From positions 1,982,001-2,046,000 of the forward strand of contig NZ_CP041659.1 in the NCBI RefSeq assembly GCF_007998985.1: a stretch of 64,000 nt of DNA, in the 5' to 3' direction. Shown one piece after another: positions 7,684 through 12,082 of the stretch (within the stretch, counting starts at the first letter, position 1; every line of letters starts with the position of its first letter). The position numbers were made by a program, and so were the translations under genes. This stretch comes from Sphingomonas xanthus. GTDB lineage: Bacteria; Pseudomonadota; Alphaproteobacteria; Sphingomonadales; Sphingomonadaceae. The notes beneath the pieces are model-generated. The model did no database searches and was not told the origin of the DNA. It was given only the letters and a program-made list of their open reading frames with translations.

Positions 7684-7780
7684 CATGCTTTCGCGCTTGG
7701 GCAGAGCGCATTTCATGTCATGCCAATTGAAATGAAATCTTGCGCTGCCGAATTTTCATGTTAATGCGATTCGCATGAAT
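7681..7780 (+). promoter_or_regulatory. promoter/operator region of the tetR gene with repeated TTTCATG half-sites
   Basis: TTTCATG occurs three times in direct orientation (7681-7687, 7711-7717, 7754-7760), and an inverted CATGAA lies at 7774-7779. ATTTCAT (7710-7716) and ATGAAAT (7732-7738) form an inverted repeat, and a perfect 13-base palindrome ATGCGATTCGCAT (7764-7776) runs into the tetR start codon. This is what an autoregulated TetR operator looks like, but which element is bound cannot be told from sequence. The region is AT-rich compared with its surroundings. A TTGAAA at 7727-7732 could be a -35 box; no convincing -10 follows. Confidence 0.5.
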
Positions 7781-8413
7781 ATTTCGACCCCCAGGCGCGC
7801 CTATCGCCAGTCTGCGCGTGCACTCGCCGCGGAGGAGACCGGTGAGCGCATCCTCGATGCCTTCGCTGCAGAGCTTCGGCAGAATTGGTTCGACGAGATC
7901 AAGCTCGAAGATGTTGCCCGCGATGCCGGGGTCACGGTGCAGACGGTCATTCGCCGATTCGGCGGCAAGGAGCAGCTCCTGGCCGCGGTCCATGACCGGA
8001 TGGGCGCGCAAATCCTCCAGCGGCGCGAAGTCCGGCCCGGCGACGCCGCGGGTGTGATCAGCGCGCTCGTCAAAGATTATGAGGAAATTGGTGAACTGGT
8101 CCTTCGCTCGCTGGCGCAGGAGGATCGCTATCCCGCGATGCGCGCGATGACTGACATTGGTCGTGCGATGCATCGGCAATGGATGGCCGCCGCGTTCGAA
8201 CCATGGCTCGGGCCGATGAGCGAGGAGGATCGCCGCCGCGCACTCGATGGGCTGGTCGTGGCCGGGGACATCTACGTCTGGAAGCTTATCAGGACCGACC
8301 TGGGACGCCCCCTGTCCGAATATCGGGACCTGGTCGAAAAACTCTGTTCGGCGGCGGTCGGGATCGATCGTGCAGCCTTGTTCAAACACCCTGAAACAGG
8401 AACCTTAAAATGA
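7775..8413 (+). CDS. TetR/AcrR family transcriptional regulator
   Basis: 212 aa. The N-terminal helix-turn-helix is clear at about residues 37-72: IKLEDVARDAGVTVQTVIRRF followed by GGKEQLLAAV, a TetR hallmark. The C-terminal ligand domain (about 80-205) is divergent, as usual, and gives no ligand. The ATG lies on a 13-base palindrome with no Shine-Dalgarno in front, so translation may be leaderless or the true start may be elsewhere; I keep 7775 because the next in-frame ATG (residue 75) would remove the DNA-binding domain. The stop overlaps the glycosyltransferase start by ATGA, so regulator and enzyme are translationally coupled. Autorepression is inferred from the repeats upstream. Confidence 0.88.
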   Translation: MNISTPRRAYRQSARALAAEETGERILDAFAAELRQNWFDEIKLEDVARDAGVTVQTVIRRFGGKEQLLAAVHDRMGAQILQRREVRPGDAAGVISALVKDYEEIGELVLRSLAQEDRYPAMRAMTDIGRAMHRQWMAAAFEPWLGPMSEEDRRRALDGLVVAGDIYVWKLIRTDLGRPLSEYRDLVEKLCSAAVGIDRAALFKHPETGTLK

Positions 8414-9711
8414 CTACGACATCGCCATACAGCTTCCTGGTAGCCACCTGGGAGGGAGGCGGCTCGGTCGGACCGGCGGTCACGGTAGCGCGCAAGCTGC
8501 GCAGCCGCGGTCATCGCGTCCGGCTGATGAGCGATCGCTGCAACCAGGTCGAGGCTGATGGCTGCGGCCTGGATTTCGTTGCCTGGACACGGGCGCCGAG
8601 CCGGCCGGACCGAAGCAAGGACAGCGACGTGTTCCGGGACTGGGAGGTCGATACGCCGCCCGAGCAGTTCCAGCGCGTCCTCGACCGGATCATGGCTGGC
8701 CCGGCGCAGGCTTTCGCGGAAGATATCCTCGAAGAACTGAGGCGCGAGCCGGCAGATCTGGTGATATCGAGCGACATGTTGTTGGGCGTGCCGATCGGCT
8801 GTGAAGCGATTGGCCAGAAATATGCCGTGCTCACCGCCAACATCAGCCTGTTTCCGATGGAGGGCGTGCCTCCGCTCGGTCCAGGCTTGGCCCCCGCAGT
8901 GACCGAAGAGGATCTGGCGTTGCACGCCGAAGTCGCAGAAGGCAATCGCCAACTGTTCATGAGCGGCCTGCCGGCGGTCAATCGCGCCCGGGAACATTTC
9001 GGCCTTGCCCTCCTCAACAGCCTTGAGGAGCAGCATGATTCGGCGGAGAGGATATTCCTGGGGACGAGCCGCGCGTTTGACTTCGCGCCCGAGCAGCTGC
9101 CTACCAACGTCCGCTACGTCGGTCCCCAATTGGCAGAGCCGAGCTGGGTCCAGCCTTGGCAATCGCCTTTCGACCTCGACGACCGGCGGCCACTCATCCT
9201 CCTGGCGTTCAGCACCAGCTTCCAGGACCATGTCGGGGTGCTCCAGCGGATCATCGATGCCGCCGCCAACCTGCCTGTCCGTCTATTGGTGACGCTGGGC
9301 GGAACGATTGGTGCCGACGAGCTTCGCCCGGCCGCAAACTGCCGCCTCGTCGACAGCGCGCCCCACGACCGGGTGATGCCTTTGGCCCAGCTGGTTATTA
9401 CCCATGGCGGGCACGGCACGGTCACGCGAAGCCTTGTTCATGGCAAGCCGATGATCGTCGTGCCGCACGGCCGGGACCAGCACGATAATGCCGTGCGCGT
9501 GACCGCCAGAGGCGCTGGCCTGGCCCTGCAGGCAACTAGTTCACGCGAGGAATTCGAAGCGGCGATCCGCAGGATGTTCGACGAGCCGGGCTTTGCGGAG
9601 GCAGCCGCCGAGCTTGGTGATAGGGTTTCCCGCGAAGTCGCGGAGTCCAGCCTGATCGAGGAGCTTGAGCAGATCGCGGCCGGATCAAGGGACGCGCTTC
9701 GCGCCGCCTGA
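8410..9711 (+). CDS. GT1-type (UGT/MGT-like) glycosyltransferase
   Basis: 433 aa GT-B fold enzyme that would transfer a sugar from a nucleotide donor to a small lipophilic acceptor. The donor-binding signature is clear at about residues 330-355: THGGHGTVTRSLVHGKPMIV then PHGRDQHDNAVRV, and AAANLPVRLLVTLGG precedes it. The N-terminal acceptor domain begins ATWEGGGSVGPAVTVARKL; the histidine that acts as catalytic base in most GT1 enzymes (GHxxP) is replaced here by a glycine-rich GGGSVGP loop, a form also known from other bacterial GT1-like proteins. Coupled to the TetR gene by an ATGA overlap. The acceptor (carotenoid, flavonoid, antibiotic or lipid) cannot be predicted. Confidence 0.85.
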   Translation: MTTTSPYSFLVATWEGGGSVGPAVTVARKLRSRGHRVRLMSDRCNQVEADGCGLDFVAWTRAPSRPDRSKDSDVFRDWEVDTPPEQFQRVLDRIMAGPAQAFAEDILEELRREPADLVISSDMLLGVPIGCEAIGQKYAVLTANISLFPMEGVPPLGPGLAPAVTEEDLALHAEVAEGNRQLFMSGLPAVNRAREHFGLALLNSLEEQHDSAERIFLGTSRAFDFAPEQLPTNVRYVGPQLAEPSWVQPWQSPFDLDDRRPLILLAFSTSFQDHVGVLQRIIDAAANLPVRLLVTLGGTIGADELRPAANCRLVDSAPHDRVMPLAQLVITHGGHGTVTRSLVHGKPMIVVPHGRDQHDNAVRVTARGAGLALQATSSREEFEAAIRRMFDEPGFAEAAAELGDRVSREVAESSLIEELEQIAAGSRDALRAA

Positions 9712-9765
9712 GGGTTCCATTCCGCCAGCCATAGCAGTTCGCAGCCTGCCGCTTTTCCGGCGGTG

Positions 9766-9788
9766 GGTTGCGGGCTGCAACCTTTGTT
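9766..9788 (+). terminator. weak stem-loop between the glycosyltransferase and gntA-like genes
   Basis: GGTTGC-GGGCT-GCAACC gives a 6-base stem with a 5-base loop (9766-9782), followed by CTTTGTT. The T-run is broken, so this is at best a weak terminator or attenuator. It suggests that the tetR-glycosyltransferase pair and the following pair may be separate units. Confidence 0.35.
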
Positions 9789-9810
9789 CGCGCGGGCCGT
9801 TCCATTGCCC

Positions 9811-10500
9811 ATGTACAGTTGGGCTTACGACCACCAGGAGCTGATCGAGGATCAGCTCACCCGTTTCATTCGTGCTTCGGATTTTCCCTGTGTCGGCGCC
9901 AAGGCCGCCCAGGCGAAGGGAACGCTGCGCGTTGTCGCGTGCCGCTGGATCGACAGCGCTTGGGACGATGTTCGGATGCACGATATCGCCCGCCAATGGG
10001 CCGCCGACTATCGTCGCGACCCCGGCCTATTCCGCAGCCTGGCTTTCGTCTTCGAGGGGCCTCTCGACCTCAGCGAAGAGCAATTCGAACGCGCGCTTTG
10101 GGATCGGCTTCAGTCGATGACCGACAAGGATGAGTGGCGCGGAATCCCCCGGGACCAGCGGGTCAGCGACGATCCTAAAGATCCGCACTTCTCGCTCAGC
10201 TTCGGCGGCGAGGCCTTCTTCGTGGTCGGCCTCCATCCCAACGCCAGCCGGCCCGCCCGGCGGTTCGAACTGCCGGCGATGATCCTGAACCTCCATGACC
10301 AGTTCGAGGCGCTTCGCGCCGAAGGCCGATATGAAAAACTACGCCATTCGATCCTAGAGCGCGACCGCAAGATCGCCGGGTCCATCAATCCGATGCTGGC
10401 CCGGCACGGCGAAGCGAGCGAGGCGCGGCAGTATAGTGGCCGGGCGGTCCCGGCCGGGTGGCAATGCCCGTTCAGTGGAAGGCGCGGCGCCAATGACTGA
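9811..10500 (+). CDS. YqcI/YcgG family heme-dependent N-oxygenase (GntA-like)
   Basis: 229 aa. The family includes GntA (N-hydroxylates the guanidine of enduracididine in guanitoxin synthesis) and RohS (makes the nitro group of azomycin), both heme enzymes acting on amino or guanidino nitrogen. Family blocks visible here: SDFPCVGAKAA at 23-33, GEAFFVVGLHPNASRPARRF at 133-152 with His142 as a possible heme ligand, NPMLARHGEASEARQYSGR at 193-211, and the closing WQCPF. I chose the ATG at 9811; an upstream GTG at 9763 would place the start inside a stem-loop and adds 16 residues without family resemblance. The last 8 bases overlap the DUF1989 gene. Family call is good; substrate is unknown. Confidence 0.85.
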   Translation: MYSWAYDHQELIEDQLTRFIRASDFPCVGAKAAQAKGTLRVVACRWIDSAWDDVRMHDIARQWAADYRRDPGLFRSLAFVFEGPLDLSEEQFERALWDRLQSMTDKDEWRGIPRDQRVSDDPKDPHFSLSFGGEAFFVVGLHPNASRPARRFELPAMILNLHDQFEALRAEGRYEKLRHSILERDRKIAGSINPMLARHGEASEARQYSGRAVPAGWQCPFSGRRGAND

Positions 10501-11089
10501 TGCGATCATTCCACCGCGCAGCGGGGTTGCCTTCTTGCTTGGCGAAGGGCGGGAACTGACCGTGACCGACCTTGAAGGCGTACAGGTCGCGGACCTAGTG
10601 GCCTATAATGCCGACGACGTGAAGGAGGTTATCTCCAACGGGCGGACTCTGGACTATGCCGAAAAGATCAAGCTGACGACCGGGGACGTCCTATATTCCA
10701 ACCGATCCAATCCGATGCTGACGATCGTCGAGGACAGGGTTGGAACCCATGACTTCCTGCTGACACCCTGCAGCGAGGCGACGTTCCGGCATTTCTACCC
10801 TGACCAGCCCGTTCACCGGGGCTGTTTCGGCAATCTTGCCGAAGCGCTGGAGCCGTTCGGGATTGACCCCGACATGCTCCCGGTGGCGTTCAACATATTC
10901 ATGAACGTACCGGTGCACGGCGATGGGCGCATCACCGTTGAACCCCCGGTGAGCCGGCCCGGGGATTTTATACGCTTTCGCGCCGAAATGCCGCTGGTTA
11001 TCGGCCTGACCGCCTGCTCGGCCTATGCGAGCAACGGCGGAACCTTCAAGCCGATCGGTTACGCGATCGGGCCGCACCCGAAAGCTTAG
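10493..11089 (+). CDS. DUF1989 (urea carboxylase-associated / carboxyguanidine deiminase-related) protein
   Basis: 198 aa. DUF1989 includes the urea carboxylase-associated proteins, two of which (CgdA and CgdB) form a carboxyguanidine deiminase in guanidine breakdown. Typical blocks are present: HDFLLTPCS (86-94), FNIFMNVPV (133-141), PGDFIRFRAEMPLVIGLTAC (156-175) and SAYASNGGTFKP. His86, Cys93, Cys111 and Cys175 are candidates for metal or catalytic roles, though I cannot tell which. No carboxylase or allophanate hydrolase gene is nearby, so a role in standard guanidine degradation is unlikely. The start ATG overlaps the end of the gntA-like gene by 8 bases, which implies coupled, probably stoichiometric expression. 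Confidence 0.85.
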   Translation: MTDAIIPPRSGVAFLLGEGRELTVTDLEGVQVADLVAYNADDVKEVISNGRTLDYAEKIKLTTGDVLYSNRSNPMLTIVEDRVGTHDFLLTPCSEATFRHFYPDQPVHRGCFGNLAEALEPFGIDPDMLPVAFNIFMNVPVHGDGRITVEPPVSRPGDFIRFRAEMPLVIGLTACSAYASNGGTFKPIGYAIGPHPKA

Positions 11090-11122
11090 ACGCCAAGCGC
11101 GTCCGCATGGCGCCGCCGGGCT

Positions 11123-12082
11123 TTAGAATTCCTCGGCCGCACGCATCAGCCTTGTAAGCCGGGGCGGGGCGCATTGGCGCCAGCTGCGCTCGAGCCAGTC
11201 AGCGACATGATCCCATTCGACGTCGCGCCGGTTCAGCTTCATTCCAAGCCAGCCGCTCGCGCCATAATATTTCGGCCAATAATAGATATCGGGCTGGGCC
11301 TCGATCAGGCCGGTCATTTCGTCCGGGCCGCTAGCCTTGACCAACAGGCCGATCGCATCCTCGCCATGGTGCCGGTCGGCGAGAATCGCGAACAGCTTGG
11401 CGCTCTTCGCGCTGCCAACGCTCCAGCCGGGGCTGCCGTGGCTCGACTTGCGCATGACTTCGGGAAGCTTCGAGGCAAGTGCGTCGACCTGTTCCTCGAT
11501 CCACTTCGCTTCGAACGGGCGCGCGGCATACCGGGCAAGGATTCGGGGATAAAGCTGGTGCTCGGCGATCAGCACGCGCCCGGCCAGCGTCTCGGCGCTG
11601 TCGCCTGGAAGAATCGCAACTTCGACTTGGCCGAGGATTTCGCCGCTATCGAGCTCGGGCGTGACGAGGTGGACGGTCGCGCCGCTGACCTTGTCGCCGT
11701 TATCGAGCGCCTGCTGCTGGGTATGCAGTCCCTTGTAGCGAGGAAGAAGCGAAGGGTGGATGTTGACGATCCGGCCAGCCCAGCGCTCGACGAAGGTCGT
11801 CGGGATGATCCGCATGAAGCCGGCCAGCGCGATCAGGTCGATGCTCGCCTTTTCAAGTTCGTCATTAAGGGCGTCCCAGTAGGATTTGCCAAGAGCCCTT
11901 GCGTCGAGGCTCACGACCGGCGCGCCCTCGGCCTTTGCCAGAGTCAGTCCGGGCGCGTTCGGCCGGTCGCCGCTCACCAGCGCGATCTCATAGGGACAAT
12001 CGTCGGCGCGACCGGCGTAGAGCAGCGCAGCCATGTTCGACCCGCGGCCCGAAATCAGGACCGCGACCCGCGCCCTATCCAT
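11123..12082 (-). CDS. purN: phosphoribosylglycinamide formyltransferase PurN fused to an MmcQ/YjbR-like domain
   Basis: The N-terminal part (about 1-190) is GAR transformylase of purine synthesis: [10 protein letters not shown] at 8-17, [10 protein letters not shown], the catalytic NIHPSLLP (Asn107, His109) and [12 protein letters not shown] with Asp145. The C-terminal 125 residues form a separate MmcQ/YjbR-like module ([46 protein letters not shown]), a small alpha/beta fold often sold as DNA-binding but of unproven function. The frame is continuous, 319 aa against about 200 for PurN alone. The ATG at 12082 overlaps the purM stop by 8 bases; longer upstream frames have no support. Confidence 0.92.

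Follow-up and report, generated by a model that had tools for sequence, protein, structure and literature searches.

The enzymes of the YqcI/YcgG family characterised so far belong to natural-product biosynthesis and act on guanidine substrates, according to the account in PMC12866846, and one of them, ChmN of the chalkophomycin pathway, is described as hydroxylating free arginine with a heme that is bound via cysteine (PMC10849742). Of the proteins that carry DUF1989, the carboxyguanidine deiminase CgdA/CgdB is reported to be heteromeric and to work with a guanidine carboxylase and an allophanate hydrolase (PMC11410670), while the DUF1989 domain of the trimethylamine N-oxide (TMAO) demethylase Tdm is reported to act on an N-oxide (PMC12560246). 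Here we describe a gene of each family, lying side by side in a 64,000-nucleotide stretch of the Sphingomonas xanthus genome (GCF_007998985.1, contig NZ_CP041659.1, positions 1,982,001 to 2,046,000; hereafter the window). The two families are neighbours far beyond chance, and the pair is almost certainly a functional unit. Both enzyme families are already known, and the literature found suggests that the conserved pair itself is undescribed, as the accessible portions of the papers on YqcI and DUF1989 contain no description of the module, its breadth, the associated DUF1989 clade or the stress promoter discussed below.

The two genes of the window are as follows:

9811..10500, plus strand: YqcI/YcgG family gene, ATG 9811 to TGA 10500, 229 aa, PF08892, NCBI model name GntA
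10493..11089, plus strand: DUF1989 gene, ATG 10493 to TAG 11089, 198 aa, PF09347, probable zinc hydrolase, member of a clade linked to YqcI

Both genes are intact and share 8 bases (10493-10500), as the original prediction for this DNA had stated, and the family motifs that it quoted are present in the two translations. The YqcI protein scores 185.9 bits against Pfam PF08892 (gathering cut-off 27) and, at 234.9 bits, passes the equivalog cut-off of 145 of NCBIfam NF041366, GntA. The DUF1989 protein scores 191.4 bits against PF09347 (cut-off 27) and falls below the NCBIfam cut-offs for UAAP1 (112.5 against 284.7 bits), UAAP2 (79 against 205.95 bits) and TMAO demethylase. Each family has one match in the source genome, a single contig of 2,227,318 bases. 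The start codon at 9811 agrees with the annotated start in a Sphingomonas insulae homologue, and several Sphingomonas proteins are among the close named matches of the DUF1989 protein.

Conservation of the gene pair

Adjacency was counted in two overlapping genome samples and in a set of named loci. In a sample by order, 29 of 147 genomes encode YqcI, at 31 places, of which 25 are followed immediately 3' by DUF1989 on the same strand; in genomes G094 and G134 of this sample the two genes are less than 3 kb apart in reversed order. A sample by phylum (398 genomes) holds YqcI in 22 genomes at 23 places, 22 of them paired, and DUF1989 in at least 110 genomes; the pairing status of the single unpaired place, L044, was also checked by profile on the locus. 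Named loci came from a profile scan with one genome per species, and the 80 scoring best against a Deinococcus protein that is itself paired were taken, a ranking that biases the resulting figure of 71 paired loci in 13 phyla towards the paired type; three genomes contribute two loci each. Pairing is complete in Bacteroidota (24/24), Pseudomonadota (15/15), Vulcanimicrobiota, Planctomycetota and Gemmatimonadota (3/3 each), and Armatimonadota, Myxococcota and Bdellovibrionota (1/1 each), and partial in Actinomycetota (7/9), Verrucomicrobiota (3/6), Acidobacteriota (4/5), Nitrospirota (3/5) and Chloroflexota (3/4). A Deinococcus plasmid raises the number of phyla to 14. The original prediction had called the two genes a possible module, a claim to be abandoned if the pairing was conserved nowhere else; the genome neighbours speak for it instead, with 37 of 44 places paired in the two samples combined and 71 of the 80 loci.

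In the directly paired loci examined YqcI is always the first gene, and no fusion of the two was seen among the open frames listed, the 544-aa frame of L012 being separate from its DUF1989. Nine of the 80 loci are unpaired; two of them (L057 and L110) are near contig ends. For the seven others, four of the genomes carry DUF1989 elsewhere, that of L068 being perhaps the gene of L071 in the same genome, and DUF1989 is absent from three genomes, one of Sulfidibacter and two of Streptomyces. In a quick YqcI tree of 117 paired and 18 unpaired rows, the unpaired ones are interspersed, with 11 changes, which fits repeated loss of the pairing; L001, L100 and matches shorter than 120 aa were left out of this tree, and the extra YqcI-like rows of L092, L120 and L122 were counted as paired by locus. 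L092 (7642-8121) and L122 (7687-8262) each have a second, weak YqcI-like gene 3' of the pair, that of L122 reaching 25.7 bits, below the Pfam cut-off of 27. L028 has a divergent YqcI domain in a 3451-aa open frame, the longest of those listed and similar by eye to a non-ribosomal peptide synthetase, without DUF1989. The control genome of Bacillus subtilis contains both families, with a gene order that we take to be ycgF-ycgG-ycgH-ycgI. B. subtilis ycgG appears in a SpoIIID-negative list within PMC3097244.

Plasmids carry the pair as well. Nineteen plasmid records have YqcI, and among the ten inspected an adjoining DUF1989 is annotated in six (Sphingomonas, Comamonas, Deinococcus, Chryseobacterium, Skermanella and Comamonadaceae), while on a Hymenobacter plasmid (L048 5647-6126) gntA is directly followed by a DUF1989-like stretch, scoring 228 bits, that the record leaves unannotated; the other three, two of Streptomyces and one of Rahnella, have no adjoining DUF1989. 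Nine of the ten YqcI genes are named GntA and the tenth YqcI/YcgG. With DUF1989 adjoining in seven of these ten loci, the NCBI name GntA looks over-broad, and it need not imply a toxin pathway. The unpaired YqcI of the Rahnella plasmid (L050 4953-10238) heads a run of SDR, 2Fe-2S, LysE and MOSC genes, possibly a different biosynthetic operon.

The DUF1989 partners are also set apart by their sequences. In a tree of 139 rows, the 114 rows of paired loci fall on one side of a branch with support 100/98. The other 25 were hand-chosen from 19 stretches, all of Pseudomonadota, and comprise tandem genes classed as CgdA/CgdB-type for their arrangement, two long proteins classed as Tdm-type for their layout, and additional DUF1989. 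The tree left out L001, L100, identical rows, domains below about 130 aa (L078 included) and the non-adjacent same-genome genes G094, G119 and G134, and it counted the extra DUF1989 of L122 as paired by locus. By this branching the paired DUF1989 proteins are a distinct subfamily, separate from the tandem CgdA/CgdB-type rows.

Putative active-site residues and promoter of the pair

The residues on which the functional assignment turns are encoded at these positions:

9889..9891, plus strand: Cys27 codon of YqcI, aligned with AglA Cys44, the axial heme ligand (profile alignment)
10592..10594, plus strand: Asp34 codon of DUF1989, aligned with Tdm Asp198 (Tdm numbering as in PMC12560246)
10769..10771, plus strand: Cys93 codon, zinc-cysteine position 1, Tdm Cys263
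10823..10825, plus strand: Cys111 codon, zinc-cysteine position 2, Tdm Cys279
11015..11017, plus strand: Cys175 codon, zinc-cysteine position 3, Tdm Cys343

The YqcI protein agrees with the AglA-type sandwich fold, and the position of Cys27 is invariant in two alignments of 54 and 50 sequences. The protein is probably a thiolate-heme N-oxygenase of AglA fold, and its earlier assignment to the heme N-oxygenase type gains support from the fold and from the register of Cys27 with Cys44. The original prediction erred in counting RohS among the GntA relatives: PMC13232832 treats RohS as a heme-oxygenase-like diiron enzyme and not as a YqcI/YcgG heme protein. The DUF1989 protein retains the three zinc cysteines together with the positions of Tdm His276 and Asp198, and is probably a zinc hydrolase of the YqcI-linked clade.

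EcfG, the general-stress sigma factor of Alphaproteobacteria, is described as recognising GGAAC-N16-CGTT, with GGAAC and GCAAC the two commonest -35 boxes in Sphingopyxis granuli (PMC7083833), and a similar EcfG motif is given for Sphingomonas melonis (PMC6599016). The gene pair of the window is preceded by a site of this kind and by a possible terminator:

9734..9778, plus strand: terminator-like stem-loop of 20 pairs (consensus scan), separating the pair from the glycosyltransferase gene upstream
9777..9801, plus strand: putative EcfG-type promoter site GCAAC-N16-CGTT, 9 bases 5' of ATG 9811

When the motif G[GC]AAC-N16/17-[CG]GTT was counted close upstream of YqcI, it was found in 12 of 32 paired alphaproteobacterial loci against 0.08 expected, and in all four further paired loci of this class (two of Hoeflea, S. 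insulae and Skermanella), with no occurrence in four unpaired alphaproteobacterial loci or in 77 upstream stretches of other groups. The GGAAC form alone occurs in 8 of 36 loci (0.10 expected), and in 23 of 36 with one mismatch allowed (1.9 expected). Expected counts were taken from the remaining sequence of these loci, which is mostly coding DNA, and the 77 stretches of other groups are the better control. Relatedness among the loci makes the nominal p-values too small, and the GCAAC form was allowed only once the window site was known, so these values should not be read literally. The divergent L028 and L030 were left out of the count, the beta- and gammaproteobacterial loci L032, L035, L036, L039 and L042 stood outside the alphaproteobacterial set, and of the plasmid loci only L045 and L053 were used. 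A point against the stress reading is that GCAAC-N16/17-CGTT occurs 29 times in the source genome, as often as its reversed control (also 29), so the window site counts only together with those of its relatives. The genome encodes the anti-sigma factor NepR (over cut-off), the sole component of the EcfG system that was searched, and the string 'ycgg' does not appear in the main text of the two EcfG regulon papers (PMC6599016, PMC7083833). Taken over the relatives, the promoter pattern makes stress control of the pair in Alphaproteobacteria very probable, and the genes would then be induced under general stress.

The stem-loop at 9734-9778, together with a next large downstream open reading frame on the opposite strand, suggests that the pair is a separate transcription unit; the consensus scan found three terminator-like sites in the region against 1.0 expected. 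No sigma-70-type promoter was found in 9650-11250, and no Rfam element near the pair at E 0.1. The genes of a TetR regulator and of a UGT/MGT-like glycosyltransferase lie immediately upstream (7775-9711) and overlap by 4 bases. The window neighbours (glycosyltransferase, TetR and the purN side) gave no tblastn match at 1e-4 in 42 relative loci and the 1.5 kb flanking them.

A possible oxidation and cleavage pathway

The reading that we favour, tentatively and at somewhat less than an even chance, is oxidation by YqcI followed by cleavage by DUF1989, acting on an arginine-like guanidine. It is suggested because known YqcI enzymes N-hydroxylate guanidines and known DUF1989 enzymes cleave C-N bonds. 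The pair would be a portable two-enzyme pathway, turned on in many Alphaproteobacteria as part of the general stress response under EcfG. YqcI, as a cysteine-ligated heme enzyme receiving electrons from an unlinked reductase, would hydroxylate a guanidino nitrogen, the likeliest substrate being free arginine or a closely related compound, and the three-cysteine zinc site of DUF1989 would then hydrolyse the N-hydroxyguanidine. Two outcomes of the hydrolysis are conceivable: a deiminase-like release of hydroxylamine with a urea (citrulline, for instance) as the remaining product, or a release of hydroxyurea, after which an amine such as ornithine is left. What the sequences show is the conserved pairing and gene order, the separate DUF1989 clade, the fold, the residues of the heme and metal sites and the enrichment of the promoter motif; heme and zinc content, substrate, sequence of steps, products and the stress induction itself are inferred. 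The arginase family has one match in the source genome, which is uninformative.

Several findings weigh against this proposal. The neighbour survey shows neither a reductase gene nor one that could supply the substrate recurring next to the pair. The substrate-positioning residues Gln177 and Arg179 of AglA are replaced by Asn160 and His162 in the window YqcI, so the substrate may not be arginine-like, and the YqcI pocket residues, being invariant in unpaired alignment rows too, are no mark of the pair. At the position of Asp346, the proposed iron ligand of TMAO demethylase, the window DUF1989 has Tyr178. The nine unpaired loci, and the genomes that have YqcI without DUF1989, count on the same side.

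The order of the two steps could be reversed, with DUF1989 making or trimming a substrate to which YqcI adds the last oxygen, the product being an N-hydroxy metabolite of protective or antibiotic-like nature that could be decorated by the glycosyltransferases near some pairs. The natural-product setting of the characterised YqcI enzymes (PMC12866846) favours such a scheme, as does a GT2-type gene near 19 of 90 loci, but this gene is nearest upstream in only 8 of 84 loci and nearest downstream in 2 of 80, which also rules it out as a conserved third member. No third gene is a recurrent part of the unit, most units consisting of two genes only, and there is no recurrent biosynthetic core gene; YqcI also comes first in directly paired units, although gene order is no proof of reaction order. 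We regard this scheme as rather unlikely. Detoxification or scavenging of a small amine, amidine or N-oxide other than a guanidine, with DUF1989 splitting a C-N bond in the manner of the TMAO demethylase domain, is unlikely also: the action of that domain on an N-oxide (PMC12560246), the retention of its three cysteines, histidine and aspartate, and the patchy distribution of YqcI (22/398 genomes of the phylum sample) with its plasmid copies would suit such an accessory trait, but the known substrates are guanidines (PMC12866846), Tdm Asp346 is not kept and the survey of loci found no transporter recurring beside the pair.

A more far-reaching version of arginine oxidation makes the pair a stress-induced, non-NOS counterpart of nitric oxide synthase, in which YqcI would hydroxylate the arginine guanidine and DUF1989 would split the product to hydroxylamine, hydroxyurea, HNO or NO with a protective or signalling role in many phyla; we consider this improbable. 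That the two genes are chance neighbours without joint function is very improbable indeed, for although each occurs unpaired (DUF1989 in at least 110 and YqcI in 22 of the 398 genomes), the adjacency counts, the constant order and short distance of the two genes at 71 of 80 loci in 13 phyla and the common clade of the paired DUF1989 rows contradict it.

Returning to the pathway of oxidation and then cleavage, a few neighbours of individual loci touch on its possible substrate. On an S. insulae plasmid (L045 3303-7058) the YqcI, DUF1989 and nucleoside deaminase genes overlap in one run, and the same plasmid has a divergent Orn/Lys/Arg-decarboxylase-like gene (178.8 bits); LysE-family genes lie near unpaired YqcI on Streptomyces and Rahnella plasmids. 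The decarboxylase-like, deaminase and LysE neighbours hint weakly at basic amino acids. Genes resembling S-adenosylmethionine-dependent methyltransferases and GT2 recur upstream of the pair at L058, L063, L064, L083, L101, L104 and L111, in Rubrobacter, Chloroflexota and a gammaproteobacterial metagenome-assembled genome.

Meaning of the pair and comparison with known systems

The original interpretation survives in its view of one unit with a probable heme N-oxygenase; it was wrong on RohS, and it overlooked how widely the pair is spread over phyla, as well as the stress-type promoter. Two poorly understood families, named GntA and 'urea carboxylase-associated' in databases, are brought into one testable pathway in 14 phyla, for which general stress is a likely condition and the list of candidate substrates is short. 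The pair may also explain a finding in Nitrospirales, where a survey came upon two proteins of the 'urea carboxylase-associated' kind in genomes otherwise devoid of guanidine genes and judged them likely false positives (PMC12342949): Nitrospira pairs are in our locus set (L109, L114 and L128), and the surveyed proteins are possibly the same ones.

Among the YqcI relatives, AglA (argolaphos pathway, PDB 9ub3/9ubb) shares about 19% identity with the window protein; its substrate is aminomethylphosphonate-arginine and its gene lies in an antibiotic cluster (PMC12866846). The likeness to GntA of the guanitoxin pathway comes through the NCBI model, above whose cut-off (NF041366) the window protein scores. 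ChmN and DcsA, of chalkophomycin and D-cycloserine, are in the same YqcI/YcgG family but in biosynthetic clusters, and are likened here by family and not by sequence. In D-cycloserine biosynthesis there is a precedent for the second step, hydroxyarginine being hydrolysed by an unrelated arginase-like enzyme; DcsB is the hydrolase partner of DcsA, and is not known as a DUF1989 protein.

On the DUF1989 side, CgdA/CgdB belongs to the same Pfam family, and the zinc-cysteine positions of its catalytic-type rows are common to the window protein, but the window protein falls outside the tandem rows. CgdA/CgdB has two DUF1989 subunits, whereas the source genome has one DUF1989 gene, on a separate branch (100/98). 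Guanidine/urea carboxylase (TIGR02712) gives only partial matches in the source genome, none above cut-off, which extends to the whole genome the earlier statement that none is nearby and argues against the standard guanidine carboxylase/CgdAB route there. The single gene, its branch, the UAAP1 and UAAP2 scores and the missing carboxylase rule out CgdAB membership. Tdm is a long protein with a GcvT-like domain, whereas the window protein is DUF1989 alone; the two are alike in the three zinc cysteines and the His276 and Asp198 positions and unlike at Asp346. Its score below the NCBIfam cut-off, the missing GcvT-like domain and Tyr178 rule out membership of the TMAO demethylases. Similar in logic is MgdH/MgdL, described as a 2-oxoglutarate enzyme that hydroxylates the methyl carbon of methylguanidine, followed by a lyase, in a guanidine-riboswitch operon (PMC12508155). 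There, as proposed for the YqcI/DUF1989 pair, a guanidine is first hydroxylated by an oxygenase, and the resulting compound is then split by the enzyme encoded next to it.
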